Assembly: GCF_004570385.1 (NCBI RefSeq)
Contig: NZ_SPQL01000007.1
Coordinates: 62,001-126,000 of the forward strand
Origin: Blastococcus sp. CT_GayMR19
GTDB lineage: Bacteria > Actinomycetota > Actinomycetes > Mycobacteriales > Geodermatophilaceae
Length of the DNA: 64,000 nt
Direction: 5' to 3'
Below are positions 14,129 to 59,742 of this stretch, piece after piece (the first letter of the stretch is position 1; each line of letters begins with the position of its first letter). A program made the translations under genes and the position numbers. The notes under the pieces were generated by a model. The model was not told where the DNA came from and made no database searches. It saw only the letters and a program-made list of their open reading frames with translations.

Positions 14129-14158
14129 TTGACACTCAGGAATCGATGGACTTATGGT
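14129..14158 (+). promoter_or_regulatory. Promoter of the cupin-eutA-MFS unit
   Basis: TTGACA at 14129-14134 and TATGGT at 14153-14158 are separated by 18 bases. The -10 overlaps the operator core that begins at 14155, so a bound repressor would block RNA polymerase. Confidence 0.6.
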
Positions 14159-14167
14159 CCTACCAAT
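14154..14167. promoter_or_regulatory. GntR/FadR-type operator, site 1
   Basis: ATGGTCCTACCAAT contains an exact TGGT-N3-ACCA core at 14155-14165. It lies 76 bases before the cupin start and overlaps the -10 hexamer. It matches the recurring operator of this region. Confidence 0.7.
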
Positions 14168-14242
14168 ACGTTGCGGTTCCGGGGCACCGCCCCGTTCATC
14201 CCGGCGCGCCCTGGCTGGCGCGCCTGACCAGGAAGGCCGCCC

Positions 14243-15364
14243 ATGGCCAAGGACGCACTCGTCAACAAGGACCTGGCGGCGAAGTTCGCCACCGAGAAGG
14301 ACTCCCCGTACACCCGCTGGGTGGCCGACGAGGGCCTGGACATCATCGCGGCGCACTACGTGGCCGACCTCAAGGAGGTCGAGCTCAAGCCGTGGGCACG
14401 TCGCGGCGGCAAGGGCGTCTTCATCAATCACGAGGCCAGCCGCACGTCGAACGACTGCTACGTGGCCGAGATCCCGGCCGGGGGTGAGCTCGCCCCGCAG
14501 CGCCAGCTGTTCGAGGAGATGATCCTGGTCCTCTCCGGCCACGGCTCCACGAAGGTGTGGAACGACAGCGGCGCCGAGGTCACCTTCGAGTGGGGCCCGG
14601 GCGCACTGTTCGCCATCCCCCTCAACGCCAACCACCAGCACTTCAACGGCTCGGGCAACGAGACCGCGCGCTTCGTCTCCTCGACCAACGCCCCGGGGAT
14701 CATCAACCTCTACGACGACATCGAGTTCGTGTTCGGCACCGCGCACGACTTCCCGAAGCGCTTCAACGGCGAGCCGGACTACTTCGCGCCCAAGGGCGAG
14801 CAGAAGGGCCTGCTGCTCGACACCAACTTCGTCGCCGACTCGATCAACCTGCCGCTGATCGAGGCCAAGGAGCGCGGCGCCGGAGGCGGGCACATCCGCT
14901 TCAACATGGCCAAGGGCTCGATGAACAGCCACATCTCGCAGTTCCCGACGGCCACGTACAAGAAGGGCCACCGCCACGGCCCCGGCGCACACGTGATCAT
15001 CCTGTCCGGCGAGGGCTACAGCCTCATGTGGCCCGAGGGCGAGGAGCCCACGCGCTACGAGTGGGGCCCCGGCACGCTGATCGTTCCGCCGAACATGTGG
15101 TACCACCAGCACTTCAACACCGGGACCGAGCCGGCCCGCTACCTCGCCTTCAAGCACGAGGTCGTGTCCATCCGGAACGCGCAGGGTGTGCCGAAGGCCT
15201 GGATCAGCCAGCGCATCGGCGGCGACCAGATCGACTACGCCGACGAGTCGTCCTACGTCCGCGAGACGTTCAAGGAGGCCCTGGCCAAGCACGGCCTCGA
15301 GCCGCAGATGGACAAGGCGTACGAGCAGGAGCAGGAGAACCTGCCGCCCAAGTCGGCTGCCTGA
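14243..15364 (+). CDS. Bicupin protein
   Basis: A 373-residue double cupin, the fold of gentisate 1,2-dioxygenase and oxalate decarboxylase. The first barrel (about 75-165) ends in LNANHQHFNGSG; the second (about 235-330) has the metal motif GHRHGPGAHVIILSGEGYSL and NMWYHQHFNTGTEPA, so the C-terminal barrel keeps the His-x-His...Glu/His set expected for a metal site. In the first barrel the His pair is replaced (PQRQLFEEM), so it is probably structural. It heads a plus-strand unit with the eutA-like gene and an MFS transporter, under operator site 1. It could be a ring-cleaving dioxygenase; the substrate is unknown. Confidence 0.85.
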   Translation: MAKDALVNKDLAAKFATEKDSPYTRWVADEGLDIIAAHYVADLKEVELKPWARRGGKGVFINHEASRTSNDCYVAEIPAGGELAPQRQLFEEMILVLSGHGSTKVWNDSGAEVTFEWGPGALFAIPLNANHQHFNGSGNETARFVSSTNAPGIINLYDDIEFVFGTAHDFPKRFNGEPDYFAPKGEQKGLLLDTNFVADSINLPLIEAKERGAGGGHIRFNMAKGSMNSHISQFPTATYKKGHRHGPGAHVIILSGEGYSLMWPEGEEPTRYEWGPGTLIVPPNMWYHQHFNTGTEPARYLAFKHEVVSIRNAQGVPKAWISQRIGGDQIDYADESSYVRETFKEALAKHGLEPQMDKAYEQEQENLPPKSAA

Positions 15365-15439
15365 TCCCACCGCTGTTCCACCCCGACGTGCGGTCCGCCC
15401 TTCGCTGGCGGACCGCACGTCGTCGTTCGAGGAGTTCCC

Positions 15440-17089
15440 GTGACGCATCCGCACCACCATCACGACCACGACCACGACCACAGCCACGGCCACGGCGCCG
15501 AGGAACCCGTCTACGGCCGTGAGCACGCCGAGCCGCAGGCGGTGCACTCGACGTTCACGCCCGACCACGACCACGACCACGACGACGCCGACCTGCCGCT
15601 CGAGGACAACCCGATCTGGCAGCAGGACAACGTCACGCTGCACAGCGTCGGCATGGACATCGGGAGCTCCGGCACGCAGGTCGTGTTCAGCCGGCTGCAC
15701 CTGCGGCGGATCGGCGAGGAGCTCACCAGCCGCTACATCGTCATCAGCCGCGACACCGTCTACCGCTCCCCGGTCGCCCTGACCCCCTACGCCAGCAGCG
15801 AGGCGATCGACGCCGAGGCGCTCGGCTCGATCATCGACCGGGCGTACGGCGAGGCCCGCATCGGTCCGGAGGAGATCGACACCGGCGTGGTGATCCTGAC
15901 CGGCGAGGCGCTGCGCCGCCGCAACGCCGAGGCCATCGCCGGCGTGCTGGCCGAGCGCGGCGGGGAGCTCGTCACGGCCACGGCCGGGCACAACATGGAG
16001 GCGATGCTGGCCGCCTACGGTTCCGGTGCCGCCAAGGTGTCCTACGACGAGGGGCTCCGCATCCTCAACGTCGACATCGGCGGAGGGACGACGAAGCTCG
16101 CCCTCCTCGACCGCGGCCGAGTCCTGCAGACGGCCGCGGTGCACGTCGGCGGCCGCCTGCAGGTCGTGGACGACGAAGGCCGCATCGTCCGGCTCGACCC
16201 CGCCGGCCGCGACCACGCCGCCCGGGCGGGCCACCACTGGGACCTCGGCGACACGGCACGGCCCGACCAGATCGAGGAGGTGGCCGAGGGGATGGCCGAC
16301 GTCCTCGTGGCCGCCCTCACCGCCGACCCGCTGCCGGACGCCGTCGAGGCGCTGCTCCTCACCGATCCCCTCGGCCCGCCGGACGGCGTCGACGGGGTGA
16401 TGTTCTCCGGCGGCGTCGCGGAGTACGTCTACGACCGGGAGAGCCGGCTGTTCGGCGACCTCGGCGGACCGCTCGGCCGGGCCATCCGCCGGCGGATCGA
16501 CTCGGGCGCGCTGCCCTTCCCGCTGCTGCCGGCGGGCGAGTGCATCCGGGCCACGGCGCTGGGGGCGTCGGAGTACAGCGTCCAGCTCAGCGGCAACACC
16601 GGCTGGATCTCCGACCCGGACGCCCTGCTCCCCCGCCGGAACCTGCAGGTCCTGCGCCCGGTCTACGAGCTCGGGGACGACGTCGACGCCGATGCCGTGG
16701 CGGCCGCCGTCCGCCGGCACCTCGTCGCGCTGGACGCGGTCCACGCCGACGCCGACCTCGCGCTGGCGATGTCCTGGGAGGGGCTGCCCAGCTACCGGCG
16801 GCTGTTCCCGTTCGCCTGTGGCATCCGCGACGGCCTGGCCGACCGCCTCGCCCAGGGACGGCCGATCTACGTGATGCTCGACGGCGACGTCGCCATGACC
16901 CTGGGCCGGCTGCTGCACGACGAGCTCGGCGTCACCACGGGCCTGCTGGTCGTGGACGGGCTGGCGCTGCGCGACTTCGACTACATCGACATCGGCCGCG
17001 TACGGCACCCGTCCAACACCGTGCCGGTCACCATCAAGTCGCTGGTGTTCGAGGCGGACCCGCACCACAGCCAGGTACCGACGGCCTAG
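15440..17089 (+). CDS. eutA: EutA-family ethanolamine ammonia-lyase reactivase-like ATPase
   Basis: A 549-residue member of the EutA family, actin/Hsp70-fold ATPases that reactivate the B12-dependent ethanolamine ammonia-lyase by exchanging damaged cofactor. The fold's phosphate loops are visible: GMDIGSSGTQVVFSRL (71-86) and VDIGGGTTKLAL (211-222), with the family blocks LTGEALRRRNAE (153-164), TATAGHNMEAML (179-190) and FSGGVAEYVYD further on. Odd: an extra ~55-residue N-terminus very rich in His and Asp (residues 4-18 and 41-49), a likely metal-binding tail, which makes the protein longer than the usual ~470. No eutB or eutC is present in the window, so its client is probably another enzyme, perhaps the preceding cupin. 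GTG 15440 follows GAGGAG. Confidence 0.8.
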   Translation: MTHPHHHHDHDHDHSHGHGAEEPVYGREHAEPQAVHSTFTPDHDHDHDDADLPLEDNPIWQQDNVTLHSVGMDIGSSGTQVVFSRLHLRRIGEELTSRYIVISRDTVYRSPVALTPYASSEAIDAEALGSIIDRAYGEARIGPEEIDTGVVILTGEALRRRNAEAIAGVLAERGGELVTATAGHNMEAMLAAYGSGAAKVSYDEGLRILNVDIGGGTTKLALLDRGRVLQTAAVHVGGRLQVVDDEGRIVRLDPAGRDHAARAGHHWDLGDTARPDQIEEVAEGMADVLVAALTADPLPDAVEALLLTDPLGPPDGVDGVMFSGGVAEYVYDRESRLFGDLGGPLGRAIRRRIDSGALPFPLLPAGECIRATALGASEYSVQLSGNTGWISDPDALLPRRNLQVLRPVYELGDDVDADAVAAAVRRHLVALDAVHADADLALAMSWEGLPSYRRLFPFACGIRDGLADRLAQGRPIYVMLDGDVAMTLGRLLHDELGVTTGLLVVDGLALRDFDYIDIGRVRHPSNTVPVTIKSLVFEADPHHSQVPTA

Positions 17090-17121
17090 AGCCGCGCAGT
17101 GAGGAACAGGAGCCGCATCCG

Positions 17122-18570
17122 GTGACGTCGGCGACGAGACCCGACGCCGGCGTCCCGGTGGAACCCCGGGGGCCCGCGGGGGCCGCCCGCTGGCTCGTCC
17201 TGTTCTCGATCACGACCGGGACGTTCATGGCGAACGTCGACTCCACGGCCGTGACCGTCGCGCTGCCGACGATGGCCCGGGAGTTCGGCGTGGGGCTCGA
17301 CGAGCTCCAGTGGGTGCTCCTGGCCTATCTCCTGGCCATCACGGCGATCCTGCCGGTCTTCGGGCGGCTCGCCGACATGGTGGGGCGCAAGCCGATCCTG
17401 AACACCGGACTCGCCCTGTTCGTCAGCGCCTCGCTCGTCGTCGCGCTGGCGCCCAACCTTCCGGTGCTGATCACGTCCCGGGTGTTCCAGGGCATCGGCG
17501 CGTCGATGTTCATGGCCACGATCATGGCCACGGCCGTCACGACCTTCCCCGCCCGTCAGCGCGGCCGGGTCCTCGGCCTCATCGGGAGCATCGTCGCCGC
17601 CGGCACGCTGCTCGGTCCCGCCCTCGGCGGCCTGCTGACCGACGCGTTCGGCTGGCGGTCGATCTTCTTCATCAACCTGCCCGTCGGCCTGCTCGGCGCG
17701 GTCGGCACGCTGGTCTTCCTGCCGTCCGTGCGGGGCACCGGCGGATCGCTGCGGCAGCTGGACCCGGCAGGGGCAGTTCTCTTCGCCGGTTTCGCGGCCG
17801 CGCTGCTGCTCGGGCTCGGGACCGGGCCGCGGGCCGGGTGGGCCAGCGCAGGCGTCGTCGCGCTGCTGCTCGGTGCCGGCGCGCTCCTGCTGCTCTTCGT
17901 GCTCTGGGAGTTCCGGGTCGCCCACCCCCTCGTCGACCTGAGGCTGTTCCGTCACCGGGTGTTCGGGCTGGGCAACCTCGCGGGCTTCCTCTACTACGTG
18001 CTCACCGTCTTCCCGCCCTTCCTGTTCCCGCTGTACCTCTACGAGGTCCTCGGGCTGTCGACCGGGCGGACGGGCCTGCTCATGACGGTGCCGGCCGTGA
18101 CCATGCTGGTCGTCTCGCCGTTCTCGGGCTGGTGGAGCGACCGCGTCGGCTCGATGTGGCCGGCGCTGGTCGCGCTCACCCTCATCATGGCGGCCATGTC
18201 GGGGACGGCGTTCCTGGGCTCGTCGTCCCCACTGTGGGCCGTCGGCGGGCTGCTCGCGCTGCTCGGGGCCGCCCTGGGGCTCTTCAACTCCCCGAACAAC
18301 TCGGCCGTCATGGGCGCCCTGGGACGGGAGCAGGTGGGGATGGCCAACGGGATCGTCTCGACGCTCCGCAATCTGGGGAGGGCCGTCGGCATCGCGGTGG
18401 TGGTGCTCCTGTACCAGGCGTTCGCCGGCACGTCGGCGACGGTCGGCGCCTCGCCCGACACCCTGCTCGCCGGGTTCCGGGGCGTGTTCGTCGCCGGCGC
18501 CGTGGTCGCGGCCGGAGCGTTCGCCGTGATCGTCCTGATGTACCGGCGCCCTCGGCCGCAGGCGCCGTAG
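17122..18570 (+). CDS. MFS transporter, DHA2 (14-helix) family
   Basis: A 482-residue drug:H+ antiporter-type permease. It has about 14 hydrophobic helices. Motif A is seen as GRLADMVGRKPILNTG (about 78-93), motif D1-like residues as MANVDSTAVTVALP (36-49), and motif C-like glycine-rich residues as GTLLGPALGGLLTDAFGWR (about 160-178). GTG 17122 has AGGAG about 9 bases upstream. It is the last gene of the cupin-eutA unit and probably exports a substrate analogue or intermediate, or imports an acid; direction cannot be judged. Confidence 0.9.
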   Translation: MTSATRPDAGVPVEPRGPAGAARWLVLFSITTGTFMANVDSTAVTVALPTMAREFGVGLDELQWVLLAYLLAITAILPVFGRLADMVGRKPILNTGLALFVSASLVVALAPNLPVLITSRVFQGIGASMFMATIMATAVTTFPARQRGRVLGLIGSIVAAGTLLGPALGGLLTDAFGWRSIFFINLPVGLLGAVGTLVFLPSVRGTGGSLRQLDPAGAVLFAGFAAALLLGLGTGPRAGWASAGVVALLLGAGALLLLFVLWEFRVAHPLVDLRLFRHRVFGLGNLAGFLYYVLTVFPPFLFPLYLYEVLGLSTGRTGLLMTVPAVTMLVVSPFSGWWSDRVGSMWPALVALTLIMAAMSGTAFLGSSSPLWAVGGLLALLGAALGLFNSPNNSAVMGALGREQVGMANGIVSTLRNLGRAVGIAVVVLLYQAFAGTSATVGASPDTLLAGFRGVFVAGAVVAAGAFAVIVLMYRRPRPQAP

Positions 18571-18640
18571 CAGCCGGAGCCGCCGGTCGAGACAACGTCC
18601 CGACGCCGGACGCACAGCCTCGGTCCGGTGCCGGAACCGG

Positions 18641-18697
18641 ACGGAGTGCGCTGAGGACCCGTTCCGGAGGGAAAAACAGGGCCTCAGCGCACTCCGT
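18641..18697. terminator. Bidirectional hairpin between convergent MFS and tctB genes
   Basis: Perfect 16-base inverted repeat: ACGGAGTGCGCTGAGG (18641-18656) and its complement (18682-18697) with a 25-base loop that includes GAAAAAC. It lies between two convergent stop codons. No T-run follows, as is common in actinobacteria. Confidence 0.65.
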
Positions 18698-18787
18698 CGG
18701 CCGGCGCCGGCCGTCCACGACCGGACGTGGTCGTCCGGTGTACCCGATGCTCCCGACGAGGACGTCGGTCCTCGCGGGGTGCGCCGG

Positions 18788-19510
18788 TCAGAACTGCATG
18801 AAGGGGAGGTAGCCGGTCGGCAGCGGGATGTAGACCAGCTCGCGGAACGCCACGTAGATCAGCACGCCGGTCACCACTGCGTAGATGACGGCGGACAACC
18901 ACGACGTCCGGCCCGAGAACCGCAGGTAGAGGAGGGCGAACAGCGGCACCGAGAGGAACGCGCCGAGCGTGAAGAAGGCGACGAAGAAGGCCACGATCCA
19001 CGACAGCGCCTCGAGCCAGGCCCGGCCGCCGGCGCTGGCGAAGACGTACTCCATGCTCGCGTCGTCTTCACGGTCGTCGTCGACGAGCTCCAGCTCCGCG
19101 GGCACGGCGACGGCTCCCACCGTCTCGCCGTCCGGATCCGCGTCCGGATCTGCGTCCGCGCTGACGGCCGCGGCCCCGGTCCCCGCCGCCGGGACAGCCG
19201 CACCGGCCGGCGCGGCCGCAGGCTTCTCCACCGTCGCAGTCGGTGCGGCCGCGACGGCGGGGGCCGGTACGGGCGCGCGCCGGCCTCGGACGGTGTCCCG
19301 GACCAACCCGATGAGGCGGAACACGCTCAGCAGGAATCCGAGCACCGACACCATCTGCGGGAACAGCGCCGCGCGGAACGGATAGTCCTGGGCGATCAGA
19401 TAGGCAGCGGCGAAGAACGCCAGCATGAAGACGGTGATGACCCACTCGCCGGGGCGCGGCCCCGTCACTGTCTCCTGCTCTGCCACCGGAGCCTCCACGG
19501 CCTTCGTCAC
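18788..19510 (-). CDS. tctB: Tripartite tricarboxylate transporter small membrane subunit TctB
   Basis: A 240-residue small subunit of a TTT-family secondary importer. Four membrane helices are visible in two pairs (about 23-42, 50-70, 168-188 and 198-220), separated by an unusually long Ala/Pro- and Asp-rich linker (about 80-150) that is not part of the core family and is probably cytoplasmic or periplasmic. The start GTG 19510 overlaps the tctA stop by four bases (GTGA), so translation is coupled. With TctA it forms the membrane channel; TctC binds the substrate outside. Confidence 0.88.
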   Translation of the reverse strand: MTKAVEAPVAEQETVTGPRPGEWVITVFMLAFFAAAYLIAQDYPFRAALFPQMVSVLGFLLSVFRLIGLVRDTVRGRRAPVPAPAVAAAPTATVEKPAAAPAGAAVPAAGTGAAAVSADADPDADPDGETVGAVAVPAELELVDDDREDDASMEYVFASAGGRAWLEALSWIVAFFVAFFTLGAFLSVPLFALLYLRFSGRTSWLSAVIYAVVTGVLIYVAFRELVYIPLPTGYLPFMQF

Positions 19511-21027
19511 TGGGTCACCTCGGCCGCGTCGTTCCGACCCGCCCGCGCCGCCGCGCGGCGCTTGCGCGCCGCTCGCAGGATCGGACCGACGATCACGAAC
19601 GCGATCACGGCCATCAGCCCCAGGACGATCGGATCATTGAGCCAGGTCCACCCGTCCAGGGAGTACGACAGGAAAAGGTACCGCTCGGCGATCCCCCCGA
19701 GGACGACGGCGAGCAGGAACGGCACCCGGGGCCAGTCCCAGTGGATGCAGATGACGCCGAATGCGGCGGCGACGAGCATCACGGCGATGTCGGCCGGGTT
19801 GTTGTTCGCGGTGAATGCGCCGATCGAGAGCAGGATCAGCAGGAAGGGAACGAGCCAGGTCCCGCGCAGGAACGACAGCTTCACCAGCTGCTTGATCAGC
19901 AGGAACGCCGCGACGACCGCGATGACGTTGGAGATCACCGTGATCCACACCATCGAGAAGGTCACGTCCAGGTTGGTCGTGAGCATCTCGGGCCCGGGCT
20001 GCAGGCCGGCGATGATGAAGGCGCCGAGCAGCACTGCCATGGACACGCTGCCCGGGATGCCGAAGGCGATGGTCGGGATCAGCGAGCCGGAGTCCTTGGC
20101 GTTGTTGTTCGCCCCGGCGGCGATCACGCCCTCCATCGATCCCTTGCCGAACTCCTCGGGGTGCTTGGAGGCCTGGCGGGCGGAGCCGTAGGCGATGAAC
20201 TGCGAGACGGACCCGCCCAGGCCCGGGATGACGCCGACACCGACACCGATCAGGCTGGAGCGCAGGACGACCCGCCAGTACTTGAACGTCTCCCGGACGC
20301 CCTGGCCCATCCCGGCGTACGGATCGGCGGTGGCGGTCTTCGTCGCGATGCTGGCCTTGCTCAGCATCAGCTGCAGCAGCTCCGCGCCGCCGAAGAGGCC
20401 CACGACCAGGGCGACGAGGTTGATGCCGTCCCAGAGGTAGAGCTGGTCGAAGGCGTAGCGGGGCACACCGGCCTGCGCGTCCAGGCCCACCATCGAGATC
20501 ATGAAGCCGGCCGTGGCCATGATCAGGCCCTTGACCATCGACCGGCCGGAGAGCGCGATCACGAAGCTCAGACCCACCAGGGTGAGCATGAAGAACTCGG
20601 GCGGTCCCAGGGCCAGCACCACCGGCCGCATGACGGGGACCGCCGCCGCGAGCAGGAACGCGCCGATGATGCCCGCCAGCGCCGAGCCGACCAGGGCGCC
20701 GGCCAGCGCGCGTCCCGCCTGCCCCTTCCTCGTCATCGGGTAACCGTCGAGCACGGTCGCGGCGGAGGTCGCCTCGCCGGGGACGCCGAGGAGCACGGAC
20801 GTCACGTCGCCGGTCGTCGCGCTGGCGGCCAGCATCCCCAGCAGGAACGCGAACGCCTGCACCGGCTCCATGTAGAAGGTGAACGGCAGCATGAGGGCGA
20901 GGCTGACCGAGCCACCGAGGCCCGGAAGGATCCCGACGGCGAAGCCGATGGCGATGCCGACGAGCATCGTCAGCAGGGTCGTGGGTTCAAAGATCCCCAG
21001 CAGGCTGCTGAAGAAGACTTCGAGCAT
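19507..21027 (-). CDS. tctA: Tripartite tricarboxylate transporter large permease TctA
   Basis: A 506-residue permease of normal family length with about 11-12 helices. The TctA signature is complete: GILPGLGGSVSLALMLPFTF (about 33-52), AASATTGDVTSVLLGVPGEA (about 66-85), and the repeat VIPGLGGSVSQFIAYGSARQ with NNNAKDSGSLIPTIAFGIPGS in the middle. These two symmetric glycine-rich blocks bind the carboxylate substrate in the family. It lies downstream of the cysteine hydrolase (21164-21937) and couples to tctB by overlap. Confidence 0.95.
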   Translation of the reverse strand: MLEVFFSSLLGIFEPTTLLTMLVGIAIGFAVGILPGLGGSVSLALMLPFTFYMEPVQAFAFLLGMLAASATTGDVTSVLLGVPGEATSAATVLDGYPMTRKGQAGRALAGALVGSALAGIIGAFLLAAAVPVMRPVVLALGPPEFFMLTLVGLSFVIALSGRSMVKGLIMATAGFMISMVGLDAQAGVPRYAFDQLYLWDGINLVALVVGLFGGAELLQLMLSKASIATKTATADPYAGMGQGVRETFKYWRVVLRSSLIGVGVGVIPGLGGSVSQFIAYGSARQASKHPEEFGKGSMEGVIAAGANNNAKDSGSLIPTIAFGIPGSVSMAVLLGAFIIAGLQPGPEMLTTNLDVTFSMVWITVISNVIAVVAAFLLIKQLVKLSFLRGTWLVPFLLILLSIGAFTANNNPADIAVMLVAAAFGVICIHWDWPRVPFLLAVVLGGIAERYLFLSYSLDGWTWLNDPIVLGLMAVIAFVIVGPILRAARKRRAAARAGRNDAAEVTQ

Positions 21028-21163
21028 GGCGAAAACCTCGGTGTGGTCGGGAGCGAACGTCAGCTGGGGGACGGGCCAGGTGGCCCGACGTGCCGGTCAG
21101 GGTGCCGGGAAGAGGACGGGTTGCGCGACCGCTGCGCGCGTGGCGCGCCGATCACAGCCCCGG

Positions 21164-21937
21164 TCAGGCCCGGGCTCCCTCCAGGACGTCGGACCGGAGG
21201 CCGGCCAGATACTGCAGCACCTCACCGAGGTGCAGCACGGACGCGTACTTCAGGTGCATGTCGAACAGGTTCACCTTGTGGGAGAGCAGGCTGCGGTCGA
21301 AGGTCGCCTCCTCGACCACCGCGACCTCGAGGCCGTGCGAGTAGGCGTCGACCACGCTGGCGCGGACACAACCACTGGTGGACTCGCCGGCGACGATCAG
21401 CGTGTCGGCGTCCACCTGCCGGAGCCAGGTCGTCACCGGGGTGCCGAAGAACGCGCTGGCGCGGGCTTTGCGGGCCATCAGCTCGCCCTCGACGGGCGCC
21501 AGCGACGGCATGAACTCGTAGCCCACCACGTCGTCCTCCCCGGGTACCCGGGCGCGCTGGGTGGCGGCTCCGAGCCGCGAGCCCGGCCGGGCCTCCCCGG
21601 TCGTGTGGATCACCGGGATGCCGGCCTCACGGGCTCCGTGGAGCAGCTTCTCCATGGCGGGCAGGGCGTCCCACGCGTTGAGGCCGCAGGTGGCCGGCCA
21701 CTCGTCGATGGCGTCGGCCAGCGGCCGGGGGCGGTCGCCGAAGACCTTGGCGTAGCAGTCGATCATGAGCAGGGCCGGTCGCGTGCCCAGCGGGCGCTTC
21801 GTCTCGTAGCGGCTTGCGATGAGCCGCTCGTCCGCGCCGATGACGTCGTCCCAGCAGTGTGCGCCGAGCTCGTCCAACTCACGGCCTCCCTCAGACGGGC
21901 GTGCTGCCCGCGGCCCCGCGGACGTGGCCGGCGTCAT
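21164..21937 (-). CDS. Isochorismatase-family cysteine hydrolase
   Basis: A 257-residue hydrolase with the full Asp-Lys-Cys triad: Asp60 in ALLMIDCY, Lys157 in ARKARASAFFGT and Cys190 in GESTSGCVRASVVDAYSHG. Members hydrolyse amides or carbamoyl groups (N-carbamoylsarcosine, maleamate, nicotinamide) or isochorismate ether bonds. A ~45-residue N-terminal extension precedes the core. It is the first gene of a unit with tctA and tctB, so the enzyme and importer are expressed together, just downstream of operator site 2. An amidase role fits the nitrile hydratase elsewhere in the region. Confidence 0.85.
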   Translation of the reverse strand: MTPATSAGPRAARPSEGGRELDELGAHCWDDVIGADERLIASRYETKRPLGTRPALLMIDCYAKVFGDRPRPLADAIDEWPATCGLNAWDALPAMEKLLHGAREAGIPVIHTTGEARPGSRLGAATQRARVPGEDDVVGYEFMPSLAPVEGELMARKARASAFFGTPVTTWLRQVDADTLIVAGESTSGCVRASVVDAYSHGLEVAVVEEATFDRSLLSHKVNLFDMHLKYASVLHLGEVLQYLAGLRSDVLEGARA

Positions 21938-21968
21938 AGTGGCCCCTACTGAAGCACGCGGGCGGGCA

Positions 21969-21989
21969 ATGGTCCATAGGTCTTACCAA
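21969..21989. promoter_or_regulatory. GntR/FadR-type operator, site 2
   Basis: ATGGTCC-ATA-GGTCTTACCAA; the core AGGTCTTACCA (21978-21988) differs from TGGT-N3-ACCA at one base, with an extra TGGTC half-site before it. It lies 32 bases upstream of the cysteine hydrolase start. The DNA between it and the gene shares ACTGAAGCACG with site 3. Confidence 0.6.
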
Positions 21990-22072
21990 AGACTTTCCCG
22001 CCGTGCGGCAGACCGGAGCGACGGCCTCCCCGCCGCTCGCGGGGTCGTCCCGGAGCGGCGCCGGTTCGAGGC

Positions 22073-22118
22073 GGTCGCGGCAGGTCGAGAGACCCGGTCG
22101 CGGCAGGTCGAGAGACCC
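22073..22118. repeat. 23-base tandem direct repeat
   Basis: Two identical abutting 23-base units at 22073-22095 and 22096-22118, each starting GGTCGCGGCAGG and ending GAGACCC, in the gap between tctC and the cysteine hydrolase. No gene overlaps them. Confidence 0.8.
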
Positions 22119-22146
22119 GCGCCGGTGGCCGGCGGTCCGCCCACCG

Positions 22147-23197: not shown

Positions 23198-23331
23198 GCG
23201 GGTGCACTCCTCGGACCCGGATCCGCGGCGAGCTCGTCCACCGGTGACCCTCCCCTGGCACGGCCCTCGCGCCGACCGCGGATGTGACCGGCGACACAGC
23301 GACGGGTCCACTGAAGCACGTCTGCCAGGTA

Positions 23332-23352
23332 ATGGTCTATAGGTCTTACCAA
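23332..23352. promoter_or_regulatory. GntR/FadR-type operator, site 3
   Basis: ATGGTCT-ATA-GGTCTTACCAA, nearly identical to site 2, in the divergent gap between tctC (start 23197) and the CoA transferase (start 23517). It could control either or both. CTGAAGCACG at 23311-23320 is shared with the site 2 leader. Confidence 0.6.
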
Positions 23353-51088: not shown

Positions 51089-51116
51089 CGGACCGTCGGC
51101 CGGCCAACCGCAACGT

Positions 51117-51164
51117 TGTCCCTCAGCCGGGCATTCTGCGCACGAAATGCCCGGCTGAGGGACA
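51117..51164. terminator. Bidirectional hairpin between convergent ThDP and cupin genes
   Basis: Perfect 18-base arms TGTCCCTCAGCCGGGCAT (51117-51134) and complement (51147-51164) with a 12-base loop, between two convergent stops. Confidence 0.8.
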
Positions 51165-51192
51165 TCGCCGGCCGGTGGCCGAGTGAGGGCGC

Positions 51193-52664: not shown

Positions 52665-52722
52665 CTCTGGCGTGCTGATGCTGGTCTCCTTCGGTTCGCC
52701 CGGGGGCGGGGCGGGCGGATCG

Positions 52723-54018
52723 TCAGGTGGCGCGCCGGGTCTCCCCGGAGACGGGCCGGGCGTCCGGCGGGGCCACCGGTTCCACCGGCTCGTCCTCGGA
52801 GTCGTCGACGCCCTGGTAGTCGCGGACGACGTTGGGCCGGGAGGCGAACCCCAGCGCCACCAGCATCGGCCCGAACCCGCCGATCGTCAGCGCGACCATC
52901 GGGCCGACGACGCCGGCGAACGCACCCATCACGACGTCCCCGATGGCCGGGCCACCCCGGGAGGACATCTGGTAGAACGCCGTCACCCGGCCGCGGAGCT
53001 CGTCCGGGGTGTCGATCTGCACGGCCGCGTGCCGGATGGTCGTGGCCATGGCGTCGAACGACCCGAGGAGCAGCGCCGCGCCGACCGCGAGCCAGACCGT
53101 CGGGGACTGGGCGAGCAGGATCGCCGCGATGCCGTAGAGGAAGGTCGCGCCCAGCAGCACCCTGCCCTGCCGGCGCGAGTCCTTGACCACCCGGAAGATC
53201 GTGTACGTGGCCAGCAGCGCCCCCGCGGACGGGGCGCTGGAGAGGATCCCGTAGCCGGTGGCGCCGATCGCGAGCACGTCGGTCGCGATCGCCGGCAGGA
53301 GGACCCGGTAGGCCGAGAGCACCGTCGCCGACAGGTCCAGCGCCATGAGGCTGGTGATCAGCGGCCGCCGGACGACGTACCGCGCGCCCTCGGCGATGCT
53401 GCCGAAGATCGACCCGGCCGCGGCCCCCGTGGGCTTCAGCCGCGGCACCCGGACGAACGCCAGGACGACGATCAGCAGGGCGTAGGTCACCGCGTCGACC
53501 GCGTACATCAGCCCGGGGCCGCTGACCGCGATGAGCACGCCGGCCAGCAGGGGGCCGAGGAGCACGGCCACCTCGCGGGAGGGGTTCAGCAGCGCGATGG
53601 CCTCACCGATGTGCTTCTTGCCGACGATGGCCGGGATCAGCGCCTGCCGGGCCGGCTGGTCGAACGTCGCCGCCGCCGTGGTGAGCAGCACGCTGAGCAC
53701 CACGTGCCAGGCCTCGACCACGTCGGTGAACGTGGCGACCGCCAGCCCCAGGGCGACGACCAGCGACACGGCCTGGGCCACCTGGAGCAGCCGCCGCCGG
53801 TCGTAGCGGTCGGCCAGGGCGCCGCCCAGCGGGCTGAGCAGCAGCAGCGCCACCGCCTGACCGGCCCCCACCAGCCCGGTGTAGGCGATGGAGTCGGTCA
53901 GCGCGTAGACGTGGAAGAAGTTCGCCGCGACCGTGCCGCGGGTGCCGATCTGGCTGAGGACGACCCCGGACCAGTAGAGGTCGAAGTCGCGGTTCTTCAG
54001 GACCTCCGGCAGCGGCAC
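52723..54018 (-). CDS. MFS transporter (EntS/MFS_3-like)
   Basis: A 431-residue MFS protein with about 12 helices. The cytoplasmic loop GGALADRYDRRRLLQVAQ (motif A-like) lies near 65-82, and FDQPARQALIPAIVG (about 121-135) is characteristic of the enterobactin exporter-like MFS_3 family. GTG 54018 lies one base after the ABC ATPase stop. It is related to the MFS gene at 59820, and may export an intermediate or inhibitor while the ABC system imports. Confidence 0.9.
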   Translation of the reverse strand: MPLPEVLKNRDFDLYWSGVVLSQIGTRGTVAANFFHVYALTDSIAYTGLVGAGQAVALLLLSPLGGALADRYDRRRLLQVAQAVSLVVALGLAVATFTDVVEAWHVVLSVLLTTAAATFDQPARQALIPAIVGKKHIGEAIALLNPSREVAVLLGPLLAGVLIAVSGPGLMYAVDAVTYALLIVVLAFVRVPRLKPTGAAAGSIFGSIAEGARYVVRRPLITSLMALDLSATVLSAYRVLLPAIATDVLAIGATGYGILSSAPSAGALLATYTIFRVVKDSRRQGRVLLGATFLYGIAAILLAQSPTVWLAVGAALLLGSFDAMATTIRHAAVQIDTPDELRGRVTAFYQMSSRGGPAIGDVVMGAFAGVVGPMVALTIGGFGPMLVALGFASRPNVVRDYQGVDDSEDEPVEPVAPPDARPVSGETRRAT

Positions 54019-54019
54019 C

Positions 54020-55174
54020 TCAGCCGACCGGGACGAGGGAGATCTTCGTCGGGTCGAGCTGGAGGTAGACCTGCGTCCCCGGCTCGAACGACACCGACGG
54101 GTTCACCCGGGCGCGGATCTCGTGCTTGTCCACGGCGACGACGTGGTCGACGGCGTCACCGAGGAAGGCGCGCGCCACGACCGTGCCGTGCCACTCGTTG
54201 GGCACCTGGCCCGCGCGGCTCTCGGTCGAGAGCTCGACCGCCTCGGGGCGGATCGAGACGACGACGTCCGAGCCGGTGGGGAGGTCGGAGCCGGACTCGA
54301 TGAAGAGCCTGCCGTTGGTCGTGTCGACGGAGTGCTGCCCGCCCTGCGCGGAGCCGACGGTGCCCGGGATGAAGTTCGACGTGCCGATGAACTCGGCGAC
54401 GAACTTGTTGCTCGGGCTCTCGTAGACCTCGCGCGGCCGGCCGAGCTGGACCACCCGGCCGTGCTCCATGACGGCGATGTGCGTGGAGAGCGCCAGCGCC
54501 TCGACCTGGTCGTGGGTGACGTAGACCGAGGTGATGCCCAGCTCGCGCTGCAGCCGCTTGAGCTCGTAGCGCAGCGACTCACGCAGCTTGGCGTCGAGGT
54601 TGGACAGCGGCTCGTCGAGCAGCAGCAGCGGCGGCTGGATGACCAGCGCCCGGGCCAGCGCGAGGCGCTGCTGCTGACCGCCGGACAACTTGGTCGCCTG
54701 GCGCCCGGCCTGCGGGGAGAGCTCCATCGTGGCGAGCACCCGCTCGACGCGCTCCGCGATCTCCGCCTTGGACGGCCGGTCGGCACGCTTGCGCACCTGC
54801 AGGGGGAACGCGACGTTGTCGAACACGGTCATGTGCGGCCAGATGGCGTAGGACTGGAAGACCATCCCCAGACCGCGCTGGTTCGCGGGCATGTTGACCG
54901 CGCGGTCGCCGCCCTTGACGCCGCCGGAGAACATCACCCGGTCGCCCACCGTGATCGTCCCGCTGTCGGGCTTTTCGAGGCCGGCGATGGAGCGCAGCGT
55001 CGTCGTCTTCCCGCAGCCCGACGGGCCGAGCAGGGTGAACAGCTCACCCTCCTTGACCTCGAAGCTCACGTCGTTGACGGCGAACACCGCCGCATGACCC
55101 TCCTGGGCCTTGTTCTTCTTGCCCCGTGCCTTCTCACCGGCGAAGGACTTGACGAGGTGGTCGATGCGAAGCAT
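54020..55174 (-). CDS. ABC transporter ATPase (iron/spermidine-putrescine type)
   Basis: A 384-residue import ATPase. Walker A LLGPSGCGKTT (48-58), Q-loop VFQSYAIWPHMTV, signature KLSGGQQQRLALAR, Walker B LLLLDEPLSNLD, switch VYVTHDQVEALAL, and a C-terminal TOBE region. A charged insertion KARGKKNKAQEGH (15-27) splits the first strands, which is unusual. Partner of the fused permease at 55248. Class is iron(III)/polyamine/phosphonate-like, so the substrate cannot be fixed. Confidence 0.93.
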   Translation of the reverse strand: MLRIDHLVKSFAGEKARGKKNKAQEGHAAVFAVNDVSFEVKEGELFTLLGPSGCGKTTTLRSIAGLEKPDSGTITVGDRVMFSGGVKGGDRAVNMPANQRGLGMVFQSYAIWPHMTVFDNVAFPLQVRKRADRPSKAEIAERVERVLATMELSPQAGRQATKLSGGQQQRLALARALVIQPPLLLLDEPLSNLDAKLRESLRYELKRLQRELGITSVYVTHDQVEALALSTHIAVMEHGRVVQLGRPREVYESPSNKFVAEFIGTSNFIPGTVGSAQGGQHSVDTTNGRLFIESGSDLPTGSDVVVSIRPEAVELSTESRAGQVPNEWHGTVVARAFLGDAVDHVVAVDKHEIRARVNPSVSFEPGTQVYLQLDPTKISLVPVG

Positions 55175-55247
55175 GGCGGTTCTGGTCCTTTCCGACCGTT
55201 ACGCGTTCGGGGGGAGCGGCTGGGGGGTGGTGTGCCGGTCGAGCGGC

Positions 55248-57002
55248 TCAGTCCTCACGCAGACCGACCTTGGCGCCGAGCTTGTAGGCGATCGTGACCA
55301 TGATCACGAGCGCCACCACCATGAGCACACCGATCGCGGCGAGCACGTTGAACGACCCGTTCTCGAACTGCTCCCAGATGAGGATCGACAGCACCTCGTT
55401 GCCCGGGCTGTACAGGAGCAGCGAGCTCGACAGCTCGCGGAAGCTGACGACCAGGATGTAGACGAAGCCGGCCATGATGCCGGGCGAGAGCAGCGGCAGG
55501 AGCACGCGGCGGAACGTCGTCCACCAGCTGGCCCCGCTCACCTGCGCCGACTCCTCCAGCTCGCTGGAGATCTGCGTCATCGACGTGGTCGCGTACCGCA
55601 TGCCGTAGGGCATGTACTTGGTGCAGTAGGCGATCAGCAGGATGAGCAGCGTCCCGTAGATCGGGATGGGGCTGCGCAGGTAGACGAAGGAGATCGAGAC
55701 ACCGAGCACGATGCCGGGGATGACCAGCGGCACGAAGCTCAGCTGCTCGACGATGCCGCGCCCGGGGATCGTCGACCGGACCGAGATCCAGGCCGCGATG
55801 GACATCAGCGCCATGACGATCACGGCGGCGCTGATGCCGAGGACCAGGCTGTTCACGAGCGCCCGGCCGGCGGAGTCCATCTCGAAGACCTGGCGGAAGT
55901 TGTCGAGGGTGAACGAGGCGAACGCCTCGGCGGACGGCGCCTGGTAGTAGGGCAGCAGCGCGGCGTAGATCAGCACCAGCAGCGGGCCGACGACGGTGGC
56001 GAAGAAGTAGATCAGGATGCCGGCGCCGACGACGGGCCGCCACTTGCCCAGGTCCAGCGGCCGCGGGCGGAAGCCCTTGCCCGTGACGGTCTGGTAGGTC
56101 TTGGTGCCCCGGCCGGCGAGCAGCCGGGCGATGATCACGCCGATGACGGCGATGGCGAGCAGGCTGACCGCCAGCGCACCGGCGGCCTGCAGGTCCCGCG
56201 GATAGCTGCGGAAGACGAAGTAGATGCGGCTGGTGAAGACGTAGATGCCGTTCTGGAGCCCGAGCAGCGCGGGCACCTCGAAGCTCTCGAGGCTGGTGAT
56301 CAGGATGACCAGGACGGAGGACAGCAGCGCCGGCCGGACCAGCGGCAGGGTCACCCGGCGCAGGGTCTGGAGCCGGGTGGCGCCCGACATCAGGGCCGAC
56401 TCCTCCAGGGAGGGGTCCATCGACCGGAAGGCCGCCACCATCAGCAGGAAGACGATCGGCGAGGAGTGCAGCCCCTCGACCCAGATCATCCCCCAGATGC
56501 TGAAGATGTTGAACGGGGCCGTGCCGAAGACGGGCTCCAGGAAGTTGTTGAGCAGCCCGATCTGCGGGCTGGCCAGGAAGATCCAGGAGACCGTGTAGAG
56601 GATGCCGGGAACGATCAGCGGCACGATCGACGCGGCGAAGAACAGCGCCTTGAACGGCACCGCCGTCCGAACGTTGAGGTACGCGAGCGTGGTGCCCACG
56701 GTCAGGGACAGGAATGCCGAGCCACCGGCGAAGGCCAGCGAGTTGCCCCACAGCTCGCCCATCCGGCCGGAACCGTAGGCGCGCTCGAACCCGCCGAGGT
56801 CGAAGCCCTCGGCGTCGAAGAAGGTGCCCCAGAGCAGGTAGCCGAGGGGCACGAGAGCCAGGTAGCCGATCGCTGCGGCGACGCCGGCGACGATGAAGAA
56901 CTTGGGGGACAGCGGCAGCTTCCTCCGCGAGGGGGAGGCGCCCGTCGAGCCGGTCGGCTCGGTCCGCTCCTCGGCCCGTACCGGAGGGCTGGTCAGCGTC
57001 AT
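55248..57002 (-). CDS. ABC transporter permease, two fused permease domains
   Basis: A 584-residue permease in which two six-helix domains are fused, as in the Fe3+ FbpB type. Both coupling (EAA) loops are visible: ESALMSGATRLQTLRRVTLP in the first half and ESAQVSGASWWTTFRRVLLP in the second. A short cytoplasmic N-terminus with basic residues precedes helix 1. It lies between the binding protein and ATPase genes. Confidence 0.93.
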   Translation of the reverse strand: MTLTSPPVRAEERTEPTGSTGASPSRRKLPLSPKFFIVAGVAAAIGYLALVPLGYLLWGTFFDAEGFDLGGFERAYGSGRMGELWGNSLAFAGGSAFLSLTVGTTLAYLNVRTAVPFKALFFAASIVPLIVPGILYTVSWIFLASPQIGLLNNFLEPVFGTAPFNIFSIWGMIWVEGLHSSPIVFLLMVAAFRSMDPSLEESALMSGATRLQTLRRVTLPLVRPALLSSVLVILITSLESFEVPALLGLQNGIYVFTSRIYFVFRSYPRDLQAAGALAVSLLAIAVIGVIIARLLAGRGTKTYQTVTGKGFRPRPLDLGKWRPVVGAGILIYFFATVVGPLLVLIYAALLPYYQAPSAEAFASFTLDNFRQVFEMDSAGRALVNSLVLGISAAVIVMALMSIAAWISVRSTIPGRGIVEQLSFVPLVIPGIVLGVSISFVYLRSPIPIYGTLLILLIAYCTKYMPYGMRYATTSMTQISSELEESAQVSGASWWTTFRRVLLPLLSPGIMAGFVYILVVSFRELSSSLLLYSPGNEVLSILIWEQFENGSFNVLAAIGVLMVVALVIMVTIAYKLGAKVGLRED

Positions 57003-57081
57003 CGGGGGAAAGGCTCCTCGATCAGGTCTCGGCGTGGTGCGGTGGCGGAACGGACGGCGCGACGGCGCGGAACGCCGGACC

Positions 57082-57114
57082 GGGGCGGCGCCGTGACGCG
57101 CACGGCACCGCCCC
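57082..57114 (-). terminator. Attenuating hairpin between binding protein and permease genes
   Basis: GGGGCGGCGCCGTG (57082-57095) pairs with CACGGCACCGCCCC (57101-57114), one mismatch, loop ACGCG. A stem here commonly keeps binding-protein mRNA in excess of permease mRNA. Confidence 0.6.
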
Positions 57115-57122
57115 GGCGGGGA

Positions 57123-58244
57123 TCACTCGATCGTCTCGGCGCCCGCGAGCAGCTCGTCGTACTTCGCGCTCCACTCGTCGCCCTGCTCGAGCAGCCGCTC
57201 GCTGTCGACCGCGACGAGCTCGGCGCCACCCAGCGCGTCACCCTCGGCGATGGCCGGGGTCAGCTCCAGGTCGGCGATGACCTGCTGGCCCTCCTCGAGC
57301 AGCCAGTCCATGAACAGCATCGCCGTGGCGGGGTTCTCCGCGTTCTTCATGCAGCTGCCGCCGTTGGGGCGGGCGATGACCGGGCTGACGTAGGGCTGGG
57401 TCTCCACGGGAGCTCCGGCCGCCTTCGCCGCCTCGACGATGTAGCTGTAGTTCGACGCCGCGACGCCGAACTGACCGGCGCTCATGAGCTCGGCCATCAC
57501 CGTGTGGCCCTTGACCACCACGGCGCCGTCGACCATGTCGGCGAAGAGCTGGTCGATCTCCTCCTGGCTCTTGCCCTCCGAGAGCCACAGGTCGGTCAGC
57601 CCGAGGTACCAGTCGTAGTCACCGAGCTCGAGGGCCAGCTGGCCGTCGTACTTCGGGTCGGCGAGGTCCTCCCACGAGGTCGGGACCATGTCGCCGCTGA
57701 TGATGTTGGTGTTCCAGCTCGGGGCGAAGAGGTTGAACCGGGTCGAGGTCCAGGCCTCGGACTGGCCGGCCTCGGGCACCTGGTCGATCAGCTCCTGCGC
57801 CACGCACTGGGCCATGACGCCCTCCTTCTGGAGCGCGCCAAGCTCGCTGCCGTTCGTCTCGACGACGTCGTTGCCCGGGAAGCCCGCGTCCTGCTCCTGC
57901 AGGATGCGCTGCAGGACGGTCTCCGAACCCGCGCGGTAGACGTTGACGTCGATGTCGAAGGTGTCGGTGAACGCCTCGGACACGGAGTCGAGGATGTCGG
58001 CGTTCATCGAGGTGTAGAGGTTGAGGCCGTTCTCCTCCGCGGCGAGCTCGACCAGGCGGTCGCGCCGCTCCTGGCCGGAGAGGCCGCCGATCTCCTCGTA
58101 GAGCTCCTCGGCCTTGGTGGGGCCGCTGTCGGCGTTGTCGCCGCTGTCGGCCGACGGCGAGGTCGGGCTGCCGCCACACGCGGCGAGGACGAGGACGGTG
58201 CCGGCCGCGAGGGCAGCGCGGGCGACGGTGCGGGACTTCCGCAT
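57123..58244 (-). CDS. ABC transporter substrate-binding lipoprotein 1
   Basis: A 373-residue lipoprotein (lipobox LVLAACGG, Cys23) with the periplasmic-binding fold of iron(III)/polyamine family. Blocks: LNLYTSMNADILDSVSEAF, DVNVYRAGSETVLQRILQEQ, TSTRFNLFAPSWNTNIISGD and PVIARPNGGSCMKNAENPAT. AGGAG lies nine bases before ATG 58244. It is paralogous to the next gene upstream (58298-59440). Two Tyr in the SYIVEAAK region could reflect iron binding, but the iron-type Tyr pair is not clear, so an organic ligand is equally possible. Confidence 0.9.
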   Translation of the reverse strand: MRKSRTVARAALAAGTVLVLAACGGSPTSPSADSGDNADSGPTKAEELYEEIGGLSGQERRDRLVELAAEENGLNLYTSMNADILDSVSEAFTDTFDIDVNVYRAGSETVLQRILQEQDAGFPGNDVVETNGSELGALQKEGVMAQCVAQELIDQVPEAGQSEAWTSTRFNLFAPSWNTNIISGDMVPTSWEDLADPKYDGQLALELGDYDWYLGLTDLWLSEGKSQEEIDQLFADMVDGAVVVKGHTVMAELMSAGQFGVAASNYSYIVEAAKAAGAPVETQPYVSPVIARPNGGSCMKNAENPATAMLFMDWLLEEGQQVIADLELTPAIAEGDALGGAELVAVDSERLLEQGDEWSAKYDELLAGAETIE

Positions 58245-58297
58245 GGGGTGGGTCTCCTTCTGGTTGTCAGAACTGATGCGGGCCGTACGGCGCCGGC

Positions 58298-59440
58298 TCA
58301 ATCGATGGCCTGGCCGTTGGCGAGGAGGTCCTCGTAGGCCTTGTTCCAGGTGTCGGGGTCCTCGAGCAGCTTCTCCTCGGGGACGGCGAAGGTCTCGAAC
58401 GCGCTGAGCGGGTTGTCGGTGCCTTCGACCGAGCCGATCCGGAAGGCCTCCTTGAACACGTCCTGGCCACCGGTCAGCTCGAAGTCGACGAAGAGCATCG
58501 CGGCGCACGGGTTCGTGGCGGTCTTGACCAGCCCGATGCCGTTGGGCCGGGAGATGATCGGCTGCACGGGCTCACCGCTGGCGGGCCGCCACGCGACGGG
58601 GGCACCCTCGGCGGCGGCCTTGTCGACCGTGTGGCTGTAGAGGGAGACGCCGACGTCGAACTGGCCGGCGGAGAGCAGCTCGCCCTGGACGGTGTGACCC
58701 TTGACGACCTGGGAGTTCGAGGCCAGGCGGGTCATCAGGTCGGTGTACTCGTCCTCGCTCATCCCCTGCTCGTCGACGTAGTAGTCGTGCAGTGCGGTGA
58801 ACCAGTCGACGTCGCCGACCTCCATCGAGATCCGGCCCTTCCACTCGGGACCGGCCAGCTGCTCCAGCGAGGTCGGCTCCTCGCCGGGCTTCACGTTGTC
58901 GGTGTTCCACCCGACGACGAAGGCGTTGAACCGCGTGGCGGTCCAGCCCTCGGACTGCCGGCCCTGCTCCAGGACGGAGTCGCGCAGCTCGCTCTCGTAC
59001 GGGTGGAGCAGGCCCTCCTGGTCGGCGACGCCGAGCTCGAGCGCGTTCGTCTCGAAGACGTCCGCCCCGTAGTAGCCCGCCTCGTCCTCCTGCAGGAGGC
59101 GCTGGAGGACCGACTCGGAGCCGGCACGGTAGTTGTTGACCTCGATGTCGTACTCATCGCTGAACACGTCGATCAGGTCTTCCATGTCCGTGTTGGACGT
59201 GTAGACGTTGAGCTGGCCCTCCTCCTCGGCGCAGGCCACGAGCTCGTCGGTGCGCTCCTGGCCGCTCATGCCGTTGAACTTGGCGTAGGTCTCCGCCGCC
59301 GCGACGGCGAGGTCCGAGTCCTCCCGGCCGCTGCCGCTGTCCCCGCTGCTCGGGGAGGCGGTCGGCGCCCCCCCGCACGCGGCGAGCATGAGGGTGGCCG
59401 CGACCGCAGCGGCGGTCCGAGTGGCGACGAGAGAACGCAT
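58298..59440 (-). CDS. ABC transporter substrate-binding lipoprotein 2
   Basis: A 380-residue lipoprotein (LMLAACGG, Cys22), paralogue of the protein at 57123: GQLNVYTSNTDMEDLIDVFS, EVNNYRAGSESVLQRLLQED, TATRFNAFVVGWNTDNV and PIISRPNGIGLVKTATNPCA align in order. AGGAG lies seven bases before ATG 59440, favouring it over an in-frame upstream ATG. It is the first gene of the seven-gene operon. Two closely related binding proteins feeding one permease suggest two ligands or different affinities. Confidence 0.9.
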   Translation of the reverse strand: MRSLVATRTAAAVAATLMLAACGGAPTASPSSGDSGSGREDSDLAVAAAETYAKFNGMSGQERTDELVACAEEEGQLNVYTSNTDMEDLIDVFSDEYDIEVNNYRAGSESVLQRLLQEDEAGYYGADVFETNALELGVADQEGLLHPYESELRDSVLEQGRQSEGWTATRFNAFVVGWNTDNVKPGEEPTSLEQLAGPEWKGRISMEVGDVDWFTALHDYYVDEQGMSEDEYTDLMTRLASNSQVVKGHTVQGELLSAGQFDVGVSLYSHTVDKAAAEGAPVAWRPASGEPVQPIISRPNGIGLVKTATNPCAAMLFVDFELTGGQDVFKEAFRIGSVEGTDNPLSAFETFAVPEEKLLEDPDTWNKAYEDLLANGQAID

Positions 59441-59516
59441 CGATGGTCTCCTGCGGGGAAAGGACGGCCAGGGCCGGGAACGGCTGTGCACCGTGGTGAT
59501 GCAGCTTACAGCTCGT

Positions 59517-59537
59517 TTGGTGTGATGGTCCTACCAT
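59517..59537. promoter_or_regulatory. GntR/FadR-type operator, site 9
   Basis: TTGGTGTG followed by ATGGTCCTACCAT; exact core TGGTCCTACCA at 59526-59536 with the same half-site spacing as sites 7 and 8. It lies 77 bases upstream of the ABC operon. Confidence 0.7.
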
Positions 59538-59729
59538 TCACCCGCTGATCGACACAAGACCGTCAACAAGTCGATACCTCAGCGTGACCTGCGCCACGGG
59601 CGCTGCCCGGGACGCGGCGGGGCCGAGGGCCGGGCGTCGCCGCGTGGCGCGACCCGGCGTGGTTCGAGGTCCGGCGGGACGACGCCGGTTCGCGGGTCCC
59701 CTGGCGGTTCGGCGCGATCCGCCGGGCCG

Positions 59730-59742
59730 ATGGTCTTACCAT
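59730..59742. promoter_or_regulatory. GntR/FadR-type operator, site 10
   Basis: ATGGTCTTACCAT, a perfect 13-base palindrome (apart from the centre), flanked by GCCG and CGGC. It faces the leader peptide and MFS gene to the right. Confidence 0.7.

Follow-up and report, generated by a model that had tools for sequence, protein, structure and literature searches.

The question raised by this locus is which protein reads the inverted repeat TGGT-N3-ACCA that recurs before genes in a 64,000-nucleotide stretch of the genome of Blastococcus sp. CT_GayMR19 (the window; positions 62001-126000 of contig C39 in a 42-contig, 4.57-Mb genome; positions given without a prefix are those of the window). The original prediction took the repeats for operators of one regulon whose regulator lies outside the window. 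Our analysis supports this, and a candidate GntR gene was found 14.4 kb beyond the right edge of the window, at C39:140408-141187, the right end of a catabolic cluster. It is likely that the sites are the operators of one dedicated FadR-subfamily (FCD-domain) GntR repressor encoded by this gene. The motif is concentrated in this one cluster, at about 76-141 kb of C39, and is not genome-wide. The single regulon therefore stands in a narrower form, as it appears local to the cluster, with the regulator as a neighbour and one possible remote member.

The motif exceeds chance and lies before genes

The window contains nine exact copies of TGGT-N3-ACCA, against a mean of 0.41 in 100 shuffles of the window (largest count 2; none of the shuffles reached nine), and the predicted excess over chance is thus confirmed. 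All seven exact cores previously listed are present at their positions, and two intragenic copies, at 1868 and 15098, bring the exact total to nine. When one mismatch was allowed, 17 matches were found against 11.5 expected, and 12 shuffles reached 17, which is not above chance. Support for the near-exact sites therefore comes from position, matrix score and conservation and not from the bare pattern. Both near-exact cores of the original prediction, at 21978 and 23341 (one mismatch, AGGTCTTACCA), are present, as is the spaced variant at 43167 (ATGGTCTG-N5-CAGACCAT). The ten listed sites are all intergenic, with a predicted start within 300 bp by our own gene calls, which came from a simple predictor made for this analysis and have approximate starts. 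Read on one strand, the nine main cores follow (T/A)GGTCYTACCA, and GGTCYTACCA occurs ten times in the genome, nine times within the window. Since the centre is CYT in nine of nine, the earlier reading of the three central bases as free was rejected for this genome; it holds in the relatives, where the centre varies.

A search with the cupin gene at 44722 gave 47 homologous loci, 36 of them close (L040-L075, 625 kb) and 11 proteobacterial. The close loci contain 51 exact cores, of which 29 lie before a gene start, against 0-2 sites before starts for each of 11 control patterns. A matrix of 35 positions was built from 30 sites picked by eye, all from other genomes: 28 of these 29 cores, L058:3287, which lies inside a predicted gene 115 bp before another gene, and L072:9977, which has no predicted start nearby. 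A further site, L066:486, 155 bp before a GntR gene, was omitted from the training. With this matrix 11 operators were found in the window (Table 1), confirming all ten listed sites and adding one that had been overlooked, at 61180 (TGGTATGACAA, 23.5 bits). The intragenic exact cores at 1868 and 15098 score -11.9 and 4.8 bits, respectively. As candidate operators, these two and the intragenic cores that recur in homologous genes were rejected as coding coincidences, because the A/T flanks are mostly missing and the outer box described below is present in 2 of 22.

A scan of 184 kb of C39 at a threshold of 7 bits gave 18 matches, all before genes and none inside genes, with 11 in the window, six to its right and one to its left, before a TetR gene. 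Operators of at least 14 bits number 15 over about 64 kb of C39, a notable scale. The whole genome was searched with a sequence-only model made from the training sites, which gave 15 matches at E up to 10. These represent eight distinct places, seven of them in the cluster, so the random genome-wide spread that would have spoken against a regulon was not seen. The eighth place, C2:152535-152545 (L004:1501, L162:8535; 22.9 bits), may be a remote member of the regulon. It precedes a second hydantoinase A/B pair at a distance of about 630 bp, and a weak short reading frame lies in this interval. The A subunit of this pair is 37% identical to the A subunit encoded in the window. The bare pattern TGGT-N3-ACCA occurs 29 times in the genome, 13 times on C39. 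Fifteen of the 16 exact cores off C39 were examined (C42:188116 was left out); four are intergenic, one scores 22.9 bits and the other 14 score at most 6.0 bits. The right limit of the regulon is perhaps at 143 kb of C39. Just past the GntR gene lies an ornithine-cyclodeaminase-like gene with a site 20 bp before it (C39:142990, L019:16990; TGGTCAGACCA, 11.5 bits), and the regulon may extend to that gene.

The placement before genes is conserved in relatives. Ten regions from nine genomes (517 kb), three of which had supplied training sites, contain 93 matrix matches of at least 9 bits; none lies deeper than 50 bp inside a predicted gene, and a start lies within 300 bp for 88 of them, but not for five. 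A 3-kb piece of L040 (Blastococcus sp. DSM 46786) occurs unchanged in G005, as does a piece of L041 (Blastococcus capsensis) in G004, so that the family is probably Geodermatophilaceae. Sites with identical 31-base neighbourhoods were merged. Merging reduced the matrix-found sites from 152 to 147, with a median distance of 47 bp to the nearest predicted start (5-95% range, 20-247 bp). The exact cores, merged likewise and pooled, number 67 in about 166 kb of intergenic DNA and 22 in the 921 kb that is coding. The operator at 14155 is also found before the orthologue of its cupin unit in relatives.

A GntR gene at the end of the cluster is the candidate regulator

Eight genes in the genome encode an FCD domain, and only that at C39:140408-141187 has a DNA-binding domain of the LPSER...SRVTVREAL...GGAF type. 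Its product matches PF00392, the GntR winged-helix domain, at 72.1 bits (cut-off 27) and PF07729, the FCD domain, at 75.5 bits (cut-off 24.3), and is thus a predicted FCD-domain GntR protein. In 13 aligned sequences, chosen among the relatives found, R54, R64 and R68 are invariant, as are H170, H215 and H237. Conserved arginines in LPSER and SRVTVR are the DNA contacts of FadR, and the histidines of FCD domains are metal-binding.

An operator of 17.5 bits lies 60 bp before the GntR gene and another of 14.7 bits before the upstream phosphatase gene, which suggests that the GntR gene is autoregulated. The operator of the phosphatase-GntR operon recurs in all eight relatives fetched (G005, G025, G022, G004, G010, G089, G088 and G036). 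A FadR-subfamily gene with the site in its own promoter, as the original prediction would have it, was therefore found, but its sites have degenerate cores; the strict pattern TnGTnnnACnA was absent around all eight FCD-domain genes, and the degenerate-core sites at the C39 gene were found later by the matrix. The 50 window proteins scanned contain no transcription-factor domain save an AraC-type ligand-binding cupin match in two cupins. Among the scanned proteins of L019, GntR is the sole transcription-factor domain, in scans that covered part of the reading frames of the cluster.

We investigated the co-occurrence of regulator and operator in 112 genomes of the family, own genome included. 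A GntR match at E 1e-40 was found in 16, with at least 75% identity in 11 and 57-61% in five. The operator model, run at E 0.5 with stricter filters than in the search of the own genome, matched in 11 of 11 genomes with an orthologue of at least 75% identity, against four of the 101 others (G080, G007, G042 and G060, one place each; Fisher p 2.6e-12, a value that ignores shared ancestry). The search was extended to 36 genomes for 37 loci with a cupin-44722 homologue (L054 was left out), 32 close and four proteobacterial. A GntR relative, with a best match 56-67% identical, was found in 29 of the 32 close genomes and in none of the four proteobacterial genomes searched. A GntR gene lies inside the fetched stretch in five of the 36 close loci (L045, L046, L066, L069 and L075). 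Near each of the five genes for relatives of 57-61% identity (L110-L114), at no more than about 1.4 kb, the matrix finds a site scoring 23-28 bits, and this sister group perhaps represents a sister regulon with the same operator.

An outer half-site and probable overlap with promoters

The outer TGGT that had been predicted eight bases before the core of four sites is exact at 44542, 44695 and 59526, but has one mismatch (AGGT) at 38769; it is also exact at 21978 and 23341, has one mismatch at 14155 (TGGA), and is missing from 30891 and 59731. A box at this position is present in 86 of the 147 matrix-found sites, a count biased by the matrix because the sites that it finds have training-like flanks. 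The box was therefore recounted on exact cores alone. In 32 of the 67 intergenic cores a TGGTC-like box (four of five letters) starts 8 bp before the core; any other offset outside the core has such a box in 0-8 of the 67, and the intragenic cores have it at -8 in two of 22. Three sites, namely 43167 and those before the GntR and phosphatase genes, combine a weak central half with a good outer half. At 43167 the half-sites occupy the -8 and +7 register and the central half-site is degenerate. At 61180, however, the core is weak and the outer box is missing, as it is in 29 of the 84 matrix-found sites with an imperfect core.

Promoters were searched in 182 oriented site-gene pairs, with TTGACA (one mismatch allowed, or TTGAC) followed by TAnnnT 16-19 bases on. 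Of the 25 promoter-like matches, 12 have the -10 element at -7 from the operator centre and six have it at +1; the mirrored control gave three matches, none at either position. At 14155, for example, TTGACA-N18-TATGGT has its TATGGT inside the operator. The overlap of the -10 element by the operator speaks for repression at these promoters but says nothing of the remaining ones.

A model of regulation and its alternatives

From the sequence we infer that the C39 GntR protein would bind the operators, act as a repressor and respond to an acidic effector. A GntR dimer would bind the palindrome TGGT-N3-ACCA, and (T/A)GGTC, lying 8 bp beyond the core as a third half-site, would often assist. In some promoters, of the form TTGACA-N17/18-TATGGT, the left operator half is TATGGT itself; the operator would there cover the -10 element, and the bound protein would block RNA polymerase. 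An acid of the pathway would enter the FCD pocket and release the protein from the operator, and its release would switch on the regulator's own operon along with a set of units for import and degradation. A more detailed proposal about the operator is tentative and, on balance, rather doubtful. According to it, the operator would combine two modes that are known separately, an inverted repeat of FadR/PdhR type (N3) and a direct repeat like that of NanR, set at a constant step of 8 bp, and the outer half-site would recruit a second dimer. Promoters would then be graded by the number and quality of their half-sites (A at -8, B at 0, C at +7 and D at +15), and the operators with a weak centre (43167 and those before the GntR and phosphatase genes) would rely on the outer half.

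Several observations weigh against assigning the sites to this GntR repressor. The co-occurrence test cannot single out the GntR gene within a cluster that is inherited together, and the genomes are related by descent. At the cut-off applied, three of the 11 GntR-bearing genomes (G088, G089 and G090) show just one operator place, like the four exceptions, and the five genomes with a relative of 57-61% identity gave no model match. Among the 32 close cupin-bearing genomes, one has a GntR match of only 34% and two have none. The genome-wide model missed five of the 11 window operators (21978, 23341, 38769, 43167 and 61180), and the genome search for GntR genes covered FCD-domain genes and not other GntR subfamilies. 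A TetR gene left of the window, C39:60536-61138, is itself preceded by a weak site (C39:61207, or L018:19207; 10.9 bits, 74 bp before). The promoter matches are not independent, since at least seven of the 12 at -7 are the orthologous promoter before the cupin gene 14243 and three of the six at +1 are that before gene 37827, and most of the 182 pairs have no promoter match.

Three alternatives were considered. The same operators and the same GntR protein might serve activation, or act both ways with the third half-site deciding, which we consider unlikely. FadR-type proteins can activate, and the operator-start distances of the 147 sites vary enough to place some operators far enough upstream. 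At the recognisable promoters, however, the operator sits on the -10 element, where activation is improbable, although few of these promoters are independent. It is less probable still that the sites are bound by another transcription factor, whether an unrecognised one or, for example, the TetR-type protein encoded left of the window, and that the GntR gene is a bystander. The weak site before the TetR gene would fit such a factor, co-inheritance by itself would yield the co-occurrence, and the scan for DNA-binding domains covered part of the reading frames of the cluster. Yet the other regions fetched yielded, at E 1e-15, no homologue of three TetR-type genes near the window, and the operator before the phosphatase-GntR operon is present in every relative fetched. 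The core also fits the form TKGT-N3-ACMA reported for the FadR subfamily in the available part of PMC4494728, as the original prediction had held.

Chance, base composition or a repeat artefact is hardly credible as the origin of the sites. The one-mismatch count in the window is at chance level, two exact window cores are intragenic, and some intragenic matches recur in homologous genes, as such an origin would allow. The exact-core count that no shuffle reached, the density of cores in intergenic over coding DNA and the near absence of control patterns before genes in the homologous loci together refute it. The dedicated GntR repressor remains the preferred explanation.

Gene content of the cluster

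Genes were assigned from Pfam and NCBIfam matches. The site-bearing units (Table 1) encode cupins, several of them distantly like gentisate or aminosalicylate dioxygenases, a EutA-like protein and isochorismatase-family hydrolases. For transport they encode tripartite tricarboxylate transporters (TctA, TctB and TctC components) and ATP-binding cassette (ABC) transporters. Their further enzymes are coenzyme A (CoA)-transferase and carboxylase subunits, aldehyde dehydrogenases, short-chain dehydrogenases (SDR) and two thiamine pyrophosphate (TPP) enzymes. The unit 38708-30972 (-) encodes a dehydrogenase, hydantoinase A and B, an SDR, nitrile-hydratase-like subunits and DUF6282; its hydantoinase A is closest to caprolactamase, below the cut-off (586 of 1000 bits). 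To the right of the window lie genes for a Rieske oxygenase with a LigXa-type C-terminal domain, a ferredoxin, a reductase and amidohydrolases, together with an RraA-like aldolase, a class II aldolase, a dienelactone-hydrolase-family protein, RpiB, a PanB-like enzyme and a histidine-phosphatase-family protein. We read the cluster as one that would serve uptake and degradation of an aromatic or nitrogen-containing acid.

The TctC receptor gene at 21983-23299 (-) appears to be split over two frames, with the start of the profile in one and the remainder at 22147-22848, through a broken gene or a sequencing error. AAA ATPases at 40977-43115 and 45852-46727 are embedded among the cupin genes, one with a CDC48-type N-terminal match below the cut-off, and the ATPase at 45852-46727 groups with a gene in 35 of the 36 close homologous loci.

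Table 1. Predicted operators in the window and extent of the site-bearing cluster (MFS, major facilitator superfamily)
Element	Position	Strand	Location	Matrix score (bits)
Core TGGTCCTACCA	14155..14165	+	77 bp before cupin-EutA-MFS unit (14243-18570, +)	25.4
Core AGGTCTTACCA, TGGT at -8	21978..21988	+	Before isochorismatase-family gene and TctA/TctB (-)	19.7
Core AGGTCTTACCA, TGGT at -8	23341..23351	+	Between broken TctC frame (-) and CoA-transferase/carboxylase unit (+)	19.5
Core TGGTCTTACCA	30891..30901	-	Before aldehyde dehydrogenase-SDR unit (-); top of matrix scan and genome search	34.9
Core TGGTCCTACCA	38769..38779	+	Before unit 38708-30972 (-); missed by genome-wide model	23.6
Variant ATGGTCTG-N5-CAGACCAT	43167..43187		Before AAA ATPase-three cupins unit (-)	15.9 at register 43176
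Core TGGTCTTACCA, outer half-site	44542..44552	-	Before TctC gene 43355 (-)	26.0
Core TGGTCCTACCA, outer half-site	44695..44705	-	Before cupin-AAA-TPP enzyme-isochorismatase-TPP enzyme unit (44722-51088, +)	26.7
Core TGGTCCTACCA, outer half-site	59526..59536	+	Before ABC-transporter unit 59440-51193 (-)	23.4
Core TGGTCTTACCA	59731..59741	+	Before MFS transporter gene 59820 (+); found by genome-wide model	22.9
Operator TGGTATGACAA	61180..61190	+	244 bp before cupin gene 61429 (+)	23.5
Site-bearing part of catabolic/transport cluster	14243..62454		Cluster and GntR gene continue to the right, C39:126001-141190	

Significance and comparison with known systems

The putative regulon and its operator set appear to be new, within the literature searched, but belong to a known kind; N3 spacing, extra half-sites and NanR direct repeats had already been described. 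Our literature search returned no paper joining GntR, cupin, nitrile hydratase and Rieske proteins in an actinobacterial gene cluster, and none on a Blastococcus GntR regulon; for GntR in Geodermatophilaceae it returned work on copper response. The result is a local regulon, delineated by sequence analysis alone, for a large catabolic cluster of an actinobacterium, and a named candidate for its regulator. Its operators point to the units that probably work in concert (Rieske oxygenase, cupins, hydantoinase/caprolactamase-like, nitrile-hydratase-like and TPP enzymes) and so restrict the range in which the substrate must be sought. The collection of 147 natural operators, in many of which a third half-site stands at one offset, lends itself well to work on the role of extra half-sites.

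Operators of the FadR subfamily are palindromic, with N2 spacing in some groups. The accessible text of PMC4494728 gives the consensus as TKGT/ACMA, typically with 3 nt between GT and AC. The PdhR box is AATTGGTnnnACCAATT in the portion available of PMC7660256, a paper to which a literature search with the sequence TGGTNNNACCA led. Like FadR, PdhR and LldR, the C39 GntR protein has PF00392 and PF07729; it would bind TGGT-N3-ACCA sites, and candidate operators lie before its own operon. Unlike them, it falls under their NCBIfam cut-offs (PdhR, 84.4 of 330 bits; LldR, 95.3 of 311; FadR, 29.7 of 249.2) and would serve one large catabolic cluster with its 15 stronger operators.

Escherichia coli NanR provides both the best match in PDB (6on4, E 4.7e-20) and the best NCBIfam match of the C39 GntR protein. 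NanR uses direct repeats of TGGTATAW, as far as the accessible text of PMC4494728 goes, and three NanR dimers bind the repeats cooperatively, with the repeat bound asymmetrically, in the corresponding part of PMC8012715. The outer half-site described here likewise repeats the core half in direct orientation, at a distance of 8 bp. Unlike NanR, the C39 GntR protein scores 122.3 bits against a NanR (PRK03837) cut-off of 260, and the main element of its putative operators is an inverted repeat with 3 bp between the halves. Weaker boxes 7-12 nt from the site centre were reported for 13 FadR-subfamily groups by Suvorova et al. 2015, and that comparative study, in its accessible text (PMC4494728), left the function of the extra half-sites open. 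The outer box here resembles them in spanning 9-13 bp from the centre, and differs from those described there in its marked preference for a single distance from the core half-site, 8 bp.

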